Source: Spirochaetota bacterium
GTDB lineage: Bacteria > Spirochaetota > UBA4802 > UBA5550
NCBI GenBank assembly: GCA_003246895.1
Contig: QKCL01000036.1
Span: 143,910 to 207,909 of the forward strand
Length of the DNA stretch: 64,000 nucleotides
Reading direction: 5' to 3'
Within the stretch, counting starts at the first letter, position 1, and each line of letters starts with the position of its first letter. Position numbers and translations under genes: made by a program. Under the pieces are notes generated by a model. The model had not been told where the DNA came from, made no database searches, and worked only from the letters and a program-made list of their open reading frames with translations. Below are positions 18,831-35,521 of this stretch, in pieces.

Positions 18831-19199
18831 TTATGCAACAGTAATTTCAATTTTACGGGGCTTCACTTCATCCTTTTTGGGAAGGTTTAATGTCAATACT
18901 CCATCCTCCATTACTGCATTTATGCTGTTTCCGTTTATGTCATCTCCAACCCTGAAAGTCCTTCTGTAGTCATAGAGCCTGTATTCGGCGTGCTTAAGGT
19001 TCTCTGTTTCCATGGGATTTTCAAGTGTGCCCATTATTGAAAGTTCATTGTTGTCCAGAGTAATTTCAATGCCGTTTTTGTCCACTCCGGGCATATCCAT
19101 TGTGATAATGTATTCGCTCTCTGTTTCGTATATGTCTGCAATGGGCGCTGTGTATTTTGTTTTTTTTTCTTCTCTGCCGGTTTTAAGTTCCTTTGACAT
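18831..19199 (-). CDS. Small heat-shock protein (Hsp20 family), third of three
   Basis: 122 residues with one alpha-crystallin domain: YTAPIADIYETESEYIITMDMPGV, an ELSIMGTL strand and the closing GVLTLNLPKKDEVKPRKIEI. It acts as an ATP-independent holdase for unfolding proteins. It lacks the long N-terminal arm seen in the first gene. Start ATG follows AGGAGG. It lies 13 nt after the middle paralogue and should be transcribed from the CIRCE-controlled promoter at 20.2 kb. The three proteins are clearly diverged paralogues, suggesting mixed oligomers or different clients. Confidence 0.93.
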   Translation of the reverse strand: MSKELKTGREEKKTKYTAPIADIYETESEYIITMDMPGVDKNGIEITLDNNELSIMGTLENPMETENLKHAEYRLYDYRRTFRVGDDINGNSINAVMEDGVLTLNLPKKDEVKPRKIEITVA

Positions 19200-19212
19200 G
19201 GCTTTCCTCCTG

Positions 19213-19626
19213 TTACCTGATTTCTATTCTTTTCGGTTTCGCTTCATCGCTCTTCTCCAGAGAGATAGTCAGTATTCCGTTTTTAAGTTGTGCCGAAATT
19301 GACTCGCCCTTAACGGAATAGGGCAGGCGGAATGTCCTGCTGAAAGAACCGAATGATCTCTCCCTGCGGATGCAAGGCCTGTCTGTGCAGGTATTTTTCC
19401 GTTCGCCTGAAATTGTCAGGGTCCTGTCGTTAAGTTCTATTTTAAGATCCTCTTTTTTTATACCCGGCAGAACAGCCCTTAGGTCAAGTTTGTCATCCTT
19501 TTCAAATATATTTACATATGGAAAATCGTATGGTCTGTTTCCTGCTGAGGGTGTATCTCTGAAGAAAGTGTCAACCATATCTCTCAGTTTCAGAACATCA
19601 TCGAAAATATCAAAAGTTGTAATCAT
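19213..19626 (-). CDS. Small heat-shock protein (Hsp20 family), second of three
   Basis: 137 residues. After a short N-terminal arm (FDDVLKLRDMVDTFF), the alpha-crystallin domain runs from FPYVNIFEKDDKLDLRAVLPGI through RTLTISGERK to NGILTISLEKSDEAKPKRIEI. An insert TCTDRPCIRR with two Cys replaces the usual loop. Ribosome site GGAGG before ATG 19626. It lies between the other two hsp20 genes with 13- and 17-nt gaps, so one transcript is expected. Confidence 0.93.
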   Translation of the reverse strand: MITTFDIFDDVLKLRDMVDTFFRDTPSAGNRPYDFPYVNIFEKDDKLDLRAVLPGIKKEDLKIELNDRTLTISGERKNTCTDRPCIRRERSFGSFSRTFRLPYSVKGESISAQLKNGILTISLEKSDEAKPKRIEIR

Positions 19627-19643
19627 GGCTATTCCTCCCTGTG

Positions 19644-20102
19644 TTATTTTACTTCTATGGAAATTTTTTTTCCGGGCGCTTTTTCATCTTTCGGGATATC
19701 TATTGTGAGTACTCCCTTTTTGAAATTCGCCTTAATGTTATCTGTGCGGATTTCCTCCGGCAGTGTAACGGAACGCCTGAAAGATCCGTAGTGCCGCTCT
19801 GTATAATAGCGGTTTTTCTTCTCATCCTTTTCTTCTTTTTCCTCTTTTTTCTCACCGGATATTGTGAGAATGTTTTTTTCAAGGGTCACATTGATGTCCT
19901 TCTCCTCCATGCCCGGCAGCTCTGCCGATACCAGAAATGCCTTTTCTGTCTCTTCCACATCAATTTTCGGTATCCATTCGGATTCAAAGAGTGTTCCCGG
20001 TTTAAGTGAGAAGAAATCATCAAAAACCCTGTCCATTTCCCTGTGAAAAGAAGAAAGTGAGCGTTTGCTGTTTTCATCACGTTTTTTAATTCCCCATTTC
20101 AT
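19644..20102 (-). CDS. Small heat-shock protein (Hsp20 family), first of three
   Basis: About 152 residues from ATG 20102, chosen over the longer track ORF because AAGGAGG lies just upstream and the longer version would include the CIRCE operator. The N-terminal arm is basic; the alpha-crystallin domain spans WIPKIDVEETEKAFLVSAEL to KGVLTIDIPKDEKAPGKKI, with a Lys/Glu-rich loop (KKEEKEEKDEKKNR). It carries an ELPGMEEKDI motif typical of the family. It leads the three-gene hsp20 operon. Confidence 0.94.
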   Translation of the reverse strand: MKWGIKKRDENSKRSLSSFHREMDRVFDDFFSLKPGTLFESEWIPKIDVEETEKAFLVSAELPGMEEKDINVTLEKNILTISGEKKEEKEEKDEKKNRYYTERHYGSFRRSVTLPEEIRTDNIKANFKKGVLTIDIPKDEKAPGKKISIEVK

Positions 20103-20122
20103 GGAAAACCTCCTTAAAGTTG

Positions 20123-20149
20123 TTAGCACTTGTATTTAGTGAGTGCTAA
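20123..20149 (-). promoter_or_regulatory. CIRCE operator (HrcA site) before the hsp20 operon
   Basis: TTAGCACTT, a 9-nt spacer and GAGTGCTAA match the CIRCE consensus TTAGCACTC-N9-GAGTGCTAA with one mismatch. It lies between the start codon of the first hsp20 gene and its promoter. By established knowledge the HrcA repressor binds CIRCE and is released on heat shock; hrcA itself is not in the window. CIRCE normally controls groE and dnaK, so use on sHSP genes is less common. Confidence 0.92.
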
Positions 20150-23400: not shown

Positions 23401-25134
23401 TTATTTTTCAAGATCATGGTAGAGTTTTTTTTCGCAGCTTGGGCAGAGCCCGTGACTTATCTGTGTTGCTGTGTTTTCTTCCATGTATTCCTCAAGGGAT
23501 CTCCATGTTCCGGATTCGTCACGAATTTTTTTGCAGGAGGAACACATTGGGAGTATATTCTGCAGTGTCATGATTTTTCTTTCAGATTCCTTCTGTGAGG
23601 TGAGGTCTCTTATGGCAGTAACCCTAATCCTTTCATTTTTGTATTCGAAAACTCTTGCACTTACTTCTATGGCGAATGATGTTCCGTTTTTTTTCAGGCC
23701 CATGGCCTCATAGGATCCTTCAACTCCCTCCTGAATTTTTTCATTCACGGTGTTCCTGTGTGACATGTCTATGAATTCAATGACTTTCAGGCCCATGAGT
23801 TCGGCAAGGTCATAACCGAACATGATGCATGCCCTGTTGTTTGCATCAACAATTCTGCCGTCTTTGATCAGAAATATCCCTTCAAGTGCTGCATCGGAGA
23901 GTGATCTGTATCTTTCATGGCTGAGAGTAAGTTCCTCATTCGCCCTGGATAGCTCCCATGTCCTTTCTTCAACTTTTTTTTCAAGGTGCTGACGTTCAAT
24001 ATCAAGTTCATGGAAGGCTTTTCTTTTAAGTCTCAGTGCCCTGTTAAGGGCGGCAACTAGTAATATCAGTATTGTCATTGCTGCAAAAACAGATAGTATT
24101 CCCCATCTGTGTGTACTCAGAATATTTTCCGGCCTGTTTATTATTAATGCATTGGAAGGAATTTTTCCGGTGTTGATGTTCCATTTTTTCAGGCTCCTCC
24201 AGTCGTAGACTTCCCTCATCGCAGTAATGTTTTCAACTGAACCTTTTGTTTGATTTGAAAGAATAATTATTCCGATCTGTCTGCCGATTTCGTTCAGGCT
24301 CAGAAGATATCCTCCGGTAATTCCGCTTCCCATTAGGCTCTCCCAGAATGAGAAAACCGGGATTTTAGACTTTTGCGTCAGTATCGCGGCCACTTCAAAG
24401 GGGGTTTGGGGAGTGCCCTTGCCGTCGGAAAACATGAGCAGGTAGAATGCAGCACTGTTCTTTTTTGCAGGAGAGGATAGAATTTCAGTAATTTCATCGA
24501 TGGTCTTATCAATAATATATATTATTTCCTTTCCCGGGGCGACTGATTTTATTGACTCCTCAAACCGTTCAATTCTCTCTCTTGCGTTATCGGAATCTGT
24601 AGTTCCGATAAGATAGAAGAGATCAGGGTTATGCAACCGTATAACTCTTTCGATGGTGCCCTGATAATCCATCTTAATTCCGATTTCTGTTTCTTTGCCG
24701 GGGGAAATGTTTTTAGGAGAGTGTATTCCCGGTTCAATGTATATGCGATGAGCATCTGGAAATATGTCTCCATGACTTTTGAAAAAACTATCCGCCACAG
24801 GGGCCCACAAGATGATATAGTCAAGTTTTATGCCTTTGTATTTTTTCCCGAGGTAGTTTTTGAAGCACTGTCTGATGTTTTTGTCGGGTATTTTCGGGGA
24901 CTCCATGAACTCAAAGTATATTTCATACTTTTTGTTCCCAGAATTCAGTTCAGTCTTAAGCCCTTTCTCAAACTGAACTTGTGCCGGGAGGTCCTTTGTA
25001 AAGGATGATACAAAGAGAATGCTGATGTTTTTTTTCAGGCGAACTTTATGTTCAGAATGTTGTGCAGCCCCGGCCGGGTGTACGTTTAAAAGCAGGGAAA
25101 AAGCAAACAGAGACAATATCAGACGAAATACCAT
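23401..25134 (-). CDS. Periplasmic-binding-type sensor with PAS and a C-terminal double-CxxC tail
   Basis: 577 residues. Signal peptide (MVFRLILSLFAFSLLLNVHPAGAA), then a periplasmic ABC-substrate-binding-like domain (about 30-330: NISILFVSSFTKDLPAQVQF, GSGITGGYLL), a membrane helix (about 345-368), a coiled coil (LDIERQHLEKKVEERTWELS), and a PAS domain (about 405-520). The protein ends with LPMCSSCKKIRD...W...SHGLCPSCEKKLY. It has no kinase, cyclase or DNA-binding domain, so the Cys tail may be the output or a partner-binding part. The same tail occurs at 35.0 kb. RBS GAGGA at 5 nt. Divergent from the kinase gene at 25351. Confidence 0.85.
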   Translation of the reverse strand: MVFRLILSLFAFSLLLNVHPAGAAQHSEHKVRLKKNISILFVSSFTKDLPAQVQFEKGLKTELNSGNKKYEIYFEFMESPKIPDKNIRQCFKNYLGKKYKGIKLDYIILWAPVADSFFKSHGDIFPDAHRIYIEPGIHSPKNISPGKETEIGIKMDYQGTIERVIRLHNPDLFYLIGTTDSDNARERIERFEESIKSVAPGKEIIYIIDKTIDEITEILSSPAKKNSAAFYLLMFSDGKGTPQTPFEVAAILTQKSKIPVFSFWESLMGSGITGGYLLSLNEIGRQIGIIILSNQTKGSVENITAMREVYDWRSLKKWNINTGKIPSNALIINRPENILSTHRWGILSVFAAMTILILLVAALNRALRLKRKAFHELDIERQHLEKKVEERTWELSRANEELTLSHERYRSLSDAALEGIFLIKDGRIVDANNRACIMFGYDLAELMGLKVIEFIDMSHRNTVNEKIQEGVEGSYEAMGLKKNGTSFAIEVSARVFEYKNERIRVTAIRDLTSQKESERKIMTLQNILPMCSSCKKIRDESGTWRSLEEYMEENTATQISHGLCPSCEKKLYHDLEK

Positions 25135-25246: not shown

Positions 25247-25350
25247 CTGCATGCCAGTTAAATGATATTCATTCCCTTTAATTTTTGACATTGCAGCTCA
25301 ATTGATATTATTTTATAAACTGAGTATATAGTTTATTGTGGGGTAAATGC

Positions 25351-27657
25351 ATGTCCATAAAAAACGGTCCCCAGAGCGGCGATAAATTTCCATTCGGCGG
25401 GACTATGAAGAATTTTTTTAATGAAGAACCTGTCAGGGGTATTGCGGATGGTTCAGGATATGTGTTCTTTGTGAAGGATTCGGGTTCCAGGTATCTGTTT
25501 GTAAACAGAATGTGGGAAGAACTCACAACGATAGATTTTCCCACGGCATTGGGCAAAGAAGATTATGAACTTTTCTCCTCGGAAGCGATTAATCCGTTGA
25601 GTTTTGAAAAGAAATCCTATATCCGCGATGGCCTTATAGAGGAATGGGAGACACTAATTGATACTCCCCAGGGGGAACGGATCTATAAAGTAAAGAAATT
25701 TCCTCTTATGGAAGGAGAAGATCCTTCTGCTTTCTGTTTTGTAATGTCAGATATAACAGACCTTAGAAGTGAAATATCGTTTCTGCAGATGATCATTTCC
25801 AATACCAGTGATGTTATTTTGGTTATTGATGAGAATGAACTGAATCATTATATAAGCCCCAATATAGAAAATATTTTTGGATGGAACCCCGTTGAGCTTC
25901 TCGGAAGATGTTTCTGGGAGAAAATATATTCTGATGACATTCAGAGGGCAAGGGAGTTTCATTCTGAGCTTTCCAGAAATCCGGGGGTATTGAGATCATT
26001 TGAATGCAGGTACATGATAAAAAGTGGTGACTATAAGTGGATTGAATTCAGGGGCAAGTATATGCTGCTGGACAATTATTCGAAAGGGGTAATTGGAAAT
26101 TTTCATGATATAACAGCAAGAAAACAGACTGAGGAGTCCCTCATTGAGAGTGAAGAGCGTTTTAAAATTCTCCATAATGCATCTTTCGGCGGAATTGCCA
26201 TACATGACAAGGGGGTTATTCTCGACTGCAACATGGGGCTCTCTGAAATTTCAGGATTTTCAATTGATGAACTTGTGGGCATGGATGGACTTCTCCTTAT
26301 AACAGAAGGCTCCCGGGATAAGGTAATGGGGAATATTCTAAGGGGATATGAAGAACCCTACGAGGCATACGGTATCAGAAAAAATGGAGAGGAGTATCCA
26401 TTAAGGCTTGAGGCGAAGAATATCCCCTATAAGGGAAAACAAATCAGAGTCGTGGAGTTCCGGGATATAACCCAGCAGAAAACCGCCGAGGATGAGCGCA
26501 ATAAACTGCAGGATCAGCTCGTGCAGTCACAGAAAATGGAAGCCATAGGAAGGCTCGCAGGCGGAGTAGCCCATGATTTCAATAATATGCTGGGAGTTAT
26601 TATAGGTTTTTCAGAACTTGCACTGGCAAAGGTTGATGAGAATGGTCCCGTTACAGGTTATCTGCATGAGATTTTTAACGCTGCACACAGATCAATGGAG
26701 ATAACAAGACAGCTCCTTGCCTTCGCAAGAAGACAGACCGTGGCTCCGGCCATACTGGATTTCAATGAAACCATTGAAAGTATGCTGAAAATGCTTCAGA
26801 GGCTTATAGGGGAAGATGTTCTGCTTAAGTGGAAGCCCGGTGAAAATCTGTGGAATGTGAGCATCGACCCTTCCCAGGTGAACCAGATACTTGCAAATCT
26901 AAGTGTCAATGCAAGAGATGCCATTGCAGATACGGGTACTGTTACAATATCTACAGAGAACGTAGTCCTTGAACAGGAATATGACTATGGAGACGGCAGC
27001 ATATCTCCGGGTGAATATGTTCTCCTTGTTTTTGAAGACACAGGATCGGGTATGGCCGAAGATGTTCTTGCAAATATTTTTGAACCGTTTTTTACAACCA
27101 AGGGCCAGAATAGAGGAACCGGTCTCGGTCTTGCTACTGTATATGGAATAATAAAGCAGAACAATGGGCACATTTATGGAAGGAGCAGTCCTGGAGAGGG
27201 TGCCTTATTCTATGTATATTTTCCGGCATTTAAAAATACGAAATCACTTCAGAAACAGACTGGGGATTTCCTGACACCCCATGCGGAAGGTAATGAAACT
27301 GTGCTTCTGGTAGAGGATGAAGCAGCAATGCTCCTGATGACCACTACCATGCTTCAGGAACTGGGGTATACGGTTGTCACTGCAGATAAACCTGAACAGG
27401 CAATTGAAATTGCCGGGAAAATGAAAGGCATGATTAATCTGCTTATTACTGATGTCATAATGCCAGGCATGAACGGCAGAGTGCTGGCAGAGAAGATGCG
27501 TGATGTTTGTCCTGAAATAAAGGTGCTTTTCATGTCGGGATACACGGCAGATGTGATCGGACATCATGGTGTGCTTGATGATGGGGTGCAGTTTGTTCAG
27601 AAACCGTTTTCACGGCAGCATCTGGCTGTGAAGGTGAGGGAAGCGCTTACGCAGTGA
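25351..27657 (+). CDS. Cytoplasmic hybrid histidine kinase (three PAS-HisKA-HATPase-REC)
   Basis: 768 residues from ATG 25351 (GGGGTAAATGC upstream; the track GTG at 25336 has no ribosome site). There is no signal peptide or membrane helix. Three PAS modules (about 25-130, 135-265, 275-385) precede HisKA with [13 protein letters not shown] (phospho-His about H408), HATPase with NARDAI, DTGSGM and NRGTGLGLA, and a receiver with [11 protein letters not shown] (phospho-Asp about D701). With three PAS domains it probably senses redox, a ligand or a cofactor in the cytoplasm. It is divergent from the periplasmic-binding-type sensor, which may feed the same pathway. No response regulator adjacent. 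Confidence 0.9.
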
Positions 27658-35014: not shown

Positions 35015-35521
35015 TTAAGGTTTCCTGAGAGTGTCAGGGTAGAGTTTTTTTATGCAGTCCGGGCACAGGCTGTGTGAAAACAGAACCTTCGATTTTGATG
35101 CAATGTATTTATCCACCCTTTCCCAGTAGCCTCTGTCGTCTCTTATTTTCATGCATGACGAGCATATGGGGATTATTCCTCTAAGCTGGTTCAGTTCTTC
35201 TATTGTTTCCTGAAGTTCTGTGTTTTTTTTCTTTAAAATGAAATTCAGCCTGTTTGTTTCGTTCCATCTCCTTACAAAGAAAAATGCGAAGTAAAACATC
35301 AGAAATATTGAAACTATAATCAGTTCATCAAGTTCATACTCTTCATGATTATGGGCAAATTTCACAAATGCTTCCAGAAGATCAAGTTTTCTGGATATGA
35401 AAAAAACAGCTGAACATAGGATTAAGAGGGTAAGACCTTTTAAAAACAAAAATTTTTTGATTGATGGTCTGGCCGCATAACCGGTTGATTTTGAATTACT
35501 TTCAGATTCTTTTTTATTCAT
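35015..35521 (-). CDS. Two-helix membrane protein with coiled coil and double-CxxC tail
   Basis: 168 residues. Two membrane helices (about 28-43 and 68-85) with a short His/Glu-rich loop (HNHEEYELDE), then a coiled coil (LKKKNTELQETIEELNQLR), and a C-terminal tail IPICSSCMKIRD...YWERV...SHSLCPDCIKKLY. This tail matches the end of the large sensor at 23401 almost residue for residue at its conserved positions. Its small size leaves the tail as the only candidate functional part. The HNHEE loop could bind metal, an inference. Start behind AGAGGA. Confidence 0.8.
   Translation of the reverse strand: MNKKESESNSKSTGYAARPSIKKFLFLKGLTLLILCSAVFFISRKLDLLEAFVKFAHNHEEYELDELIIVSIFLMFYFAFFFVRRWNETNRLNFILKKKNTELQETIEELNQLRGIIPICSSCMKIRDDRGYWERVDKYIASKSKVLFSHSLCPDCIKKLYPDTLRKP

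Follow-up and report, generated by a model that had tools for sequence, protein, structure and literature searches.

A conserved Cys4-His tail is a candidate output domain of modular bacterial sensors

Two otherwise unrelated proteins encoded in the window (the whole 64,000-nucleotide stretch of Spirochaetota DNA analysed here, part of contig C57 of a 3.57-Mb genome) end in the same short, cysteine-rich tail, which recurs in sensors of many other bacteria. That this tail acts as an output is well supported, because it is almost always terminal, because histidine kinase and GGDEF domains are absent from the proteins that carry it, because it takes the place of those modules on one sensor family, because its linkers keep a heptad register, and because of the features of the proteins in which it follows a receiver domain. 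Going further, we somewhat favor the reading of the tail as a hitherto undescribed output domain at the C terminus of modular sensors, in which a coil-driven dimer would present zinc-stabilised fingers to a shared partner.

The larger of the two proteins (577 aa) runs from a signal peptide through a periplasmic ABC_sub_bind-like domain, a single transmembrane (TM) helix, a coiled coil and a PAS domain (residues 405-518) to the tail (Table 1), whose conserved Cys and His residues are C531, C534, H561, C564 and C567. The corresponding residues of the smaller membrane protein (168 aa) are C120, C123, H150, C153 and C156. When the two proteins are compared by BLASTP, their last 63 residues are 43% identical (E = 4e-17), and only noise is found outside this region. 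The match reaches back into the end of the coil, with the conserved block starting some 15 residues ahead of the first Cys (L..AL..V..L.G.LPIC). Neither protein has a kinase, cyclase or DNA-binding domain according to Pfam and NCBIfam. An earlier note, made from the sequence of the window, had claimed both the common tail and the lack of any such output, and both observations hold. Chance similarity of the two tails is excluded by the 15 paralogues in the host genome, which stand beside about 34 GGDEF matches, and by the near invariance of four Cys and one His among 211 proteins. Elsewhere in the window, three neighboring minus-strand genes (18831-20129) look like small heat-shock proteins.

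Table 1. Positions in the window of the two tail proteins, their parts and a neighboring kinase gene
Feature	Position	Strand	Basis or remark
577-aa sensor	23401..25134	-	ORF; Pfam PAS 1.1e-12; TM ~342; sensor homologues
Tail of 577-aa sensor, residues 519-577	23404..23580	-	BLASTP, alignment; AlphaFold mean pLDDT 87.8
PAS domain, about residues 405-518	23581..23922	-	Pfam
Periplasmic ABC_sub_bind-like sensor domain	24145..25032	-	Homologues elsewhere fused to GGDEF, histidine kinase or tail
Hybrid histidine kinase (PAS-HK-REC), divergent from 577-aa sensor gene	25336..27657	+	ORF
168-aa membrane protein (two TM helices, coiled coil, tail)	35015..35521	-	ORF, BLASTP, TM prediction
Tail of 168-aa protein, residues 116-168	35018..35176	-	BLASTP, alignment; AlphaFold mean pLDDT 90.1
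Coiled coil entering tail of 168-aa protein, a-d-e hydrophobic heptads	35177..35263	-	Alignment, AlphaFold

The 211 distinct tail proteins come from genome searches as well as from relatives and named genome records, and their tails, of about 45 residues, conform to the consensus L..AL..VKTL.G.LPIC(S/A).CKKIRDD.GYW.Q.E.YI..HS.A.FSHG(I/L)CP.C.KKLYP. The motif CxxC-(about 26)-HxxCxxC is complete in 209 of them: the first and fourth Cys and the His are invariant, while the second and third Cys are lost once each (in L047 and L239, respectively). The earlier note had named poor conservation of these cysteines as grounds for abandoning its proposal, and such grounds are thus absent. Conservation exceeds 90% at many further positions, and the strongly conserved residues other than Cys include L27, G29, P32, K38, R41, G45, W47, E51, Y53 and F62. 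So many positions above 90% in so short a domain, across so many phyla, suggest a conserved surface rather than a metal fold alone.

No named domain covers the tail above curated cut-offs in Pfam-A, NCBIfam or PHROGs, again as the earlier note had supposed, and its other ground for refutation, a match to a characterised domain, is absent as well. The best Pfam match lies below the cut-off at an E-value of about 0.01. Among Pfam models that fell short of the threshold, those closest to the tail are for the most part zinc fingers and ribbons. PDB sequences likewise offered no family for the tail, with no zinc finger among profile matches at E<1. The top PDB matches of the profile (glutamate dehydrogenase, E about 0.007) were set aside as chance, covering the coil and a GxW stretch but none of the Cys residues. 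No paper describing the tail was found in the open-licence literature, where a name published in a subscription journal could be missed. The tail is therefore an effector domain undescribed in Pfam-A, NCBIfam and PHROGs, set in a sensor-coil-output architecture of a known kind.

The position of the tail is that of an output. It is C-terminal in 210 of the 211 proteins, and the domains that precede it (PAS, GAF, REC, HAMP, MASE1/6/11, CHASE, CHASE4, 7TMR-DISM, Reg_prop, SBP_bac_3, NMT1, PocR and a Pkinase-AAA-TPR-GAF assembly) belong to the input classes usual for kinases and cyclases. Searches with local HMMs found a GGDEF or histidine kinase domain in none of the 211; GGDEF and HATPase are absent among the 25 commonest Pfam families listed, and most of the long proteins were also checked singly. 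A single sub-cut-off HisKA match lies upstream of the tail in L136. Moreover, the sensor family to which the 577-aa protein belongs carries any of three modules at an equivalent position, namely GGDEF (L161, residues 393-546; L163, 398-552; L108), histidine kinase (L181, L183 and L187) or the tail (L162, 397-450; L057; and the window protein). Together with the seven-residue linker steps described below, this exchange bears out the earlier suggestion that the tail may itself be the output. Among individual architectures, L268 (2-4354) encodes a giant Ser/Thr kinase-AAA-TPR-GAF receptor that terminates in the tail, and L065 and L128 each have two tail genes no more than a few kilobases apart, the second ORF of L065 being a 65-aa protein that is almost all tail.

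The linkers between input and tail provide a further line of evidence. We measured them from the HMM-anchored PAS domain, or from the aligned conserved Lys of the receiver, to the first Cys. The distance from the Asp of the PAS DIT motif is 14, 21, 28, 35 or 42 residues in 58 of 62 cases, and in the 577-aa sensor, from the D of a DLT motif, it is exactly 21 residues, or three heptads. When the commonest length is set aside, 13 of 17 PAS linkers are still multiples of seven, with a p value of 1.4e-8 that is too small because the sequences are related. From the receiver Lys the distance is 34, 41, 48, 55, 62, 69 or 90 residues in 28 of 32 cases, and 18 of the 22 linkers left after removal of the commonest length share one phase (p = 2.5e-12, again too small for related sequences). 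The four off-phase receivers are all one residue longer and lack the usual Lys-Pro in the alignment. It is difficult to see what else than the register of a coil would keep linkers of differing length in a single phase, and the coil of the tail does show a-d-e heptads at positions 10/13/14, 17/20/21 and 24/27. Linkers of Rec-GGDEF proteins also vary in seven-residue steps, and their a-d-e heptad is connected with a mechanism of register shift (PMC8041772), and the linker between sensor and effector of LOV kinases works in seven-residue steps as well (PMC6798134).

AlphaFold models of the two window tails, which are monomers without Zn, agree in the order of their elements: a long helix leads to a CxxC and a beta hairpin, after which a short helix and the His-bearing loop precede a second CxxC that opens a helix. 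This confident model resembles a small zinc-finger-like fold at the end of a coil. The Cys/His pattern of the zinc-finger class is present; no known family or structure of that class matched significantly, Foldseek gave no hit below an E-value of 2.7 in the PDB, and a comparison with viral structures gave nothing. From the motif and our reading of the model, we tentatively assign the tail to the zinc fingers and consider it probably zinc-stabilised. The earlier note had suggested that the tail may be a redox or metal switch. On such a reading the two CxxC pairs would respond to free Zn or to the redox state, making the tail a second sensor. Four near-invariant Cys in two such pairs fit that idea, and many carriers are anaerobes or sulfate reducers to judge from record titles. 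However, a sensor placed at the far C terminus with no other output would leave these proteins without effect, a thiol switch has no need of the strongly conserved non-Cys residues between L27 and F62, and the nearest sub-threshold Pfam models, as noted above, point mostly to zinc fingers and ribbons. We thus regard a switch as unlikely. A structural Zn site would account no less well for the Cys arrangement and the modelled fold.

If the tail is a small zinc finger, it might bind DNA or RNA once the coil switches it on. The motif invites this interpretation, as does the tail's place as the terminal domain of phosphorylatable response regulators. The sole protein in which the tail is not terminal (L111, 7575-8378) could also be cited in its favor: there a REC domain, coil and tail are followed by about 65 residues weakly like a winged helix-turn-helix (HTH_24, E = 0.003, sub-cut-off). 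A nucleic-acid-binding output is nevertheless distinctly unlikely, given that the mean net charge of the tail is -1.4, with +3 or above reached by just 7 of 211, and that the neighboring genes which might be targets are not consistent. In addition, TM helices are predicted in 77 of 133 tail proteins, and in some of them no more than about 40 residues separate the tail from the membrane. The slight acidity of the tail and the large share of carriers predicted to be membrane-bound lead us to prefer a protein partner to a nucleic acid. Alternatively, a dimer of tails could form the active site of a small enzyme from conserved R, D, E, H and Y residues. Polar residues beyond the Cys (R41, D43, E51, H64 and Y53) are indeed conserved, and the tail sits where catalytic domains sit, but its size would be very small for an enzyme, and it matches neither an enzyme family nor a solved fold. 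We judge catalysis to be highly improbable, and the small size of the tail leads us to prefer protein docking.

Gene neighborhoods bear on what the tail might dock to. Proteins in which a receiver precedes the tail (REC-tail proteins) have nearly all retained the phospho-acceptor Asp and the other phosphorylation residues, and a histidine kinase gene lies within two genes of theirs in 15 of 23 cases. With both features they look like terminal response regulators. Genes for Hpt, CheA/CheB, CheR/CheB or CheD adjoin some of them, and three REC-tail genes sit in chemotaxis-type operons that may lead towards a target: L058 (HK/REC-tail/CheR/CheB), L097 (MCP/CheA/CheB/REC-tail) and L112 (HK/REC-tail/CheD). 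It is conceivable that the tail has no output of its own and is an adaptor that recruits or modulates kinases encoded nearby. An excess of histidine kinase genes is seen at positions -1 and -2 (13% and 11%, versus 0-3% at -3 to -6), and the hybrid kinase gene divergent from that of the 577-aa sensor is a possible functional neighbor. Yet much of this excess comes from REC-tail genes, whose kinases are the expected phosphodonors; among the remaining tail genes only 17 of 109 have a kinase within two genes, and about half of all tail genes are without a close same-strand neighbor. Kinase docking is therefore a quite improbable role. Clustering of neighbors for a conserved partner gene returned only two-component and signaling proteins as recurrent. 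L031 and L032 each encode a short two-TM protein with a divergent tail, and in both the gene immediately ahead of it (380-386 aa) belongs to one family, probably DUF362, which the neighbor tally contains twice.

Our preferred reading, an output that docks on a protein, can be put as a mechanism. The periodicity of the linkers suggests dimerisation, and the sensor would be a parallel dimer. Upon ligand binding, a PAS or GAF signal, or phosphorylation of a receiver, its coil would undergo a shift or twist like that of Rec-GGDEF proteins, and this change could re-orient two small fingers stabilised by Zn on the two CxxC pairs, with the His nearby. Re-orientation would then bare a conserved face (K38, R41, D43, W47, E51, Y53 and H64, in the numbering of the 82-residue modelled stretch of the 168-aa protein). 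The least certain step is the last, in which this face would dock on one partner that every tail protein of the cell has in common. Our best guess is that this target is a protein, and many sensors would converge on it much as GGDEF proteins converge on c-di-GMP. Whether the tail is a major output class with GGDEF-like modularity, linking up to 17 sensors per genome in at least 16 phyla to one common target, we consider an almost even question that leans slightly towards doubt.

The closest parallels are the Rec-GGDEF and PAS-GGDEF cyclases such as DgcR and WspR (PMC8041772), which have the same inputs, the same place after a dimeric coil, linkers in seven-residue steps and a-d-e heptads, and which share with the tail a sensor family able to bear either module. 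The tail differs from them in being a Cys4-His domain of about 45 residues without GGDEF sequence or known product. Coil-coupled histidine kinases (LOV/PAS-HK, YF1; PMC6798134) show a similar dependence on seven-residue linkers and have sensors in common with tail proteins, whereas the tail has neither a DHp nor an ATPase domain and is one small C-terminal domain. Cys4 zinc fingers (zinc ribbon, zf-C4pol and GATA-like treble clefs) likewise have a beta hairpin flanked by two CxxC pairs, of which the second begins a helix, and they supply most of the best sub-threshold Pfam matches. Unlike these fingers, to which it has no significant sequence or Foldseek match, the tail has a further invariant His, placed three residues ahead of its second CxxC, and is nearly always found behind a signaling coil. 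Many bacteria thus appear to have a signaling route through the tail, in place of a kinase or an enzyme that makes a messenger. Sensors without a recognised output are usually dismissed as incomplete or uninterpretable. If the tail is an output, large sets of them, such as the 15 of the host genome, become interpretable, and the shared target can be sought by experiment. The heptad rule would also permit chimeras that put the tail under the control of a well-studied input for light or phosphorylation.

The earlier note had mentioned similar tails in PAS proteins of other anaerobes. PAS carriers do exist, but that description is too narrow, given the many non-PAS inputs, and it understates the range of hosts, which extends to soil and water metagenome-assembled genomes (MAGs) of Acidobacteria, Verrucomicrobia and Chloroflexi and to a gammaproteobacterial plasmid (one tail, without gene annotation). 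According to record titles the tail is present in at least 16 phyla, a count that includes many MAGs in which single assignments may reflect contamination; several carriers are cultured isolates, and cultured carriers include Desulfosediminicola flagellatus and Dethiosulfatarculus sandiegensis. The titles name Spirochaetes, Desulfobacterota and relatives, Nitrospirae, Nitrospinae, Acidobacteria, Verrucomicrobia, Lentisphaerae and Kiritimatiellae, as well as Hydrogenedentota, Neomarinimicrobiota, Cloacimonadota, Zixibacteria, KSB1, Chitinispirillaceae, Aegiribacteria and Chloroflexi. In even samples of two phyla, the tail occurs in 44 of 198 genomes from that of the window and in 53 of 118 from that of Desulfosediminicola, with as many as 17 copies. 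No match was found in phage records. Tail proteins are encoded on three IMG/VR contigs (L137, L138 and L139).
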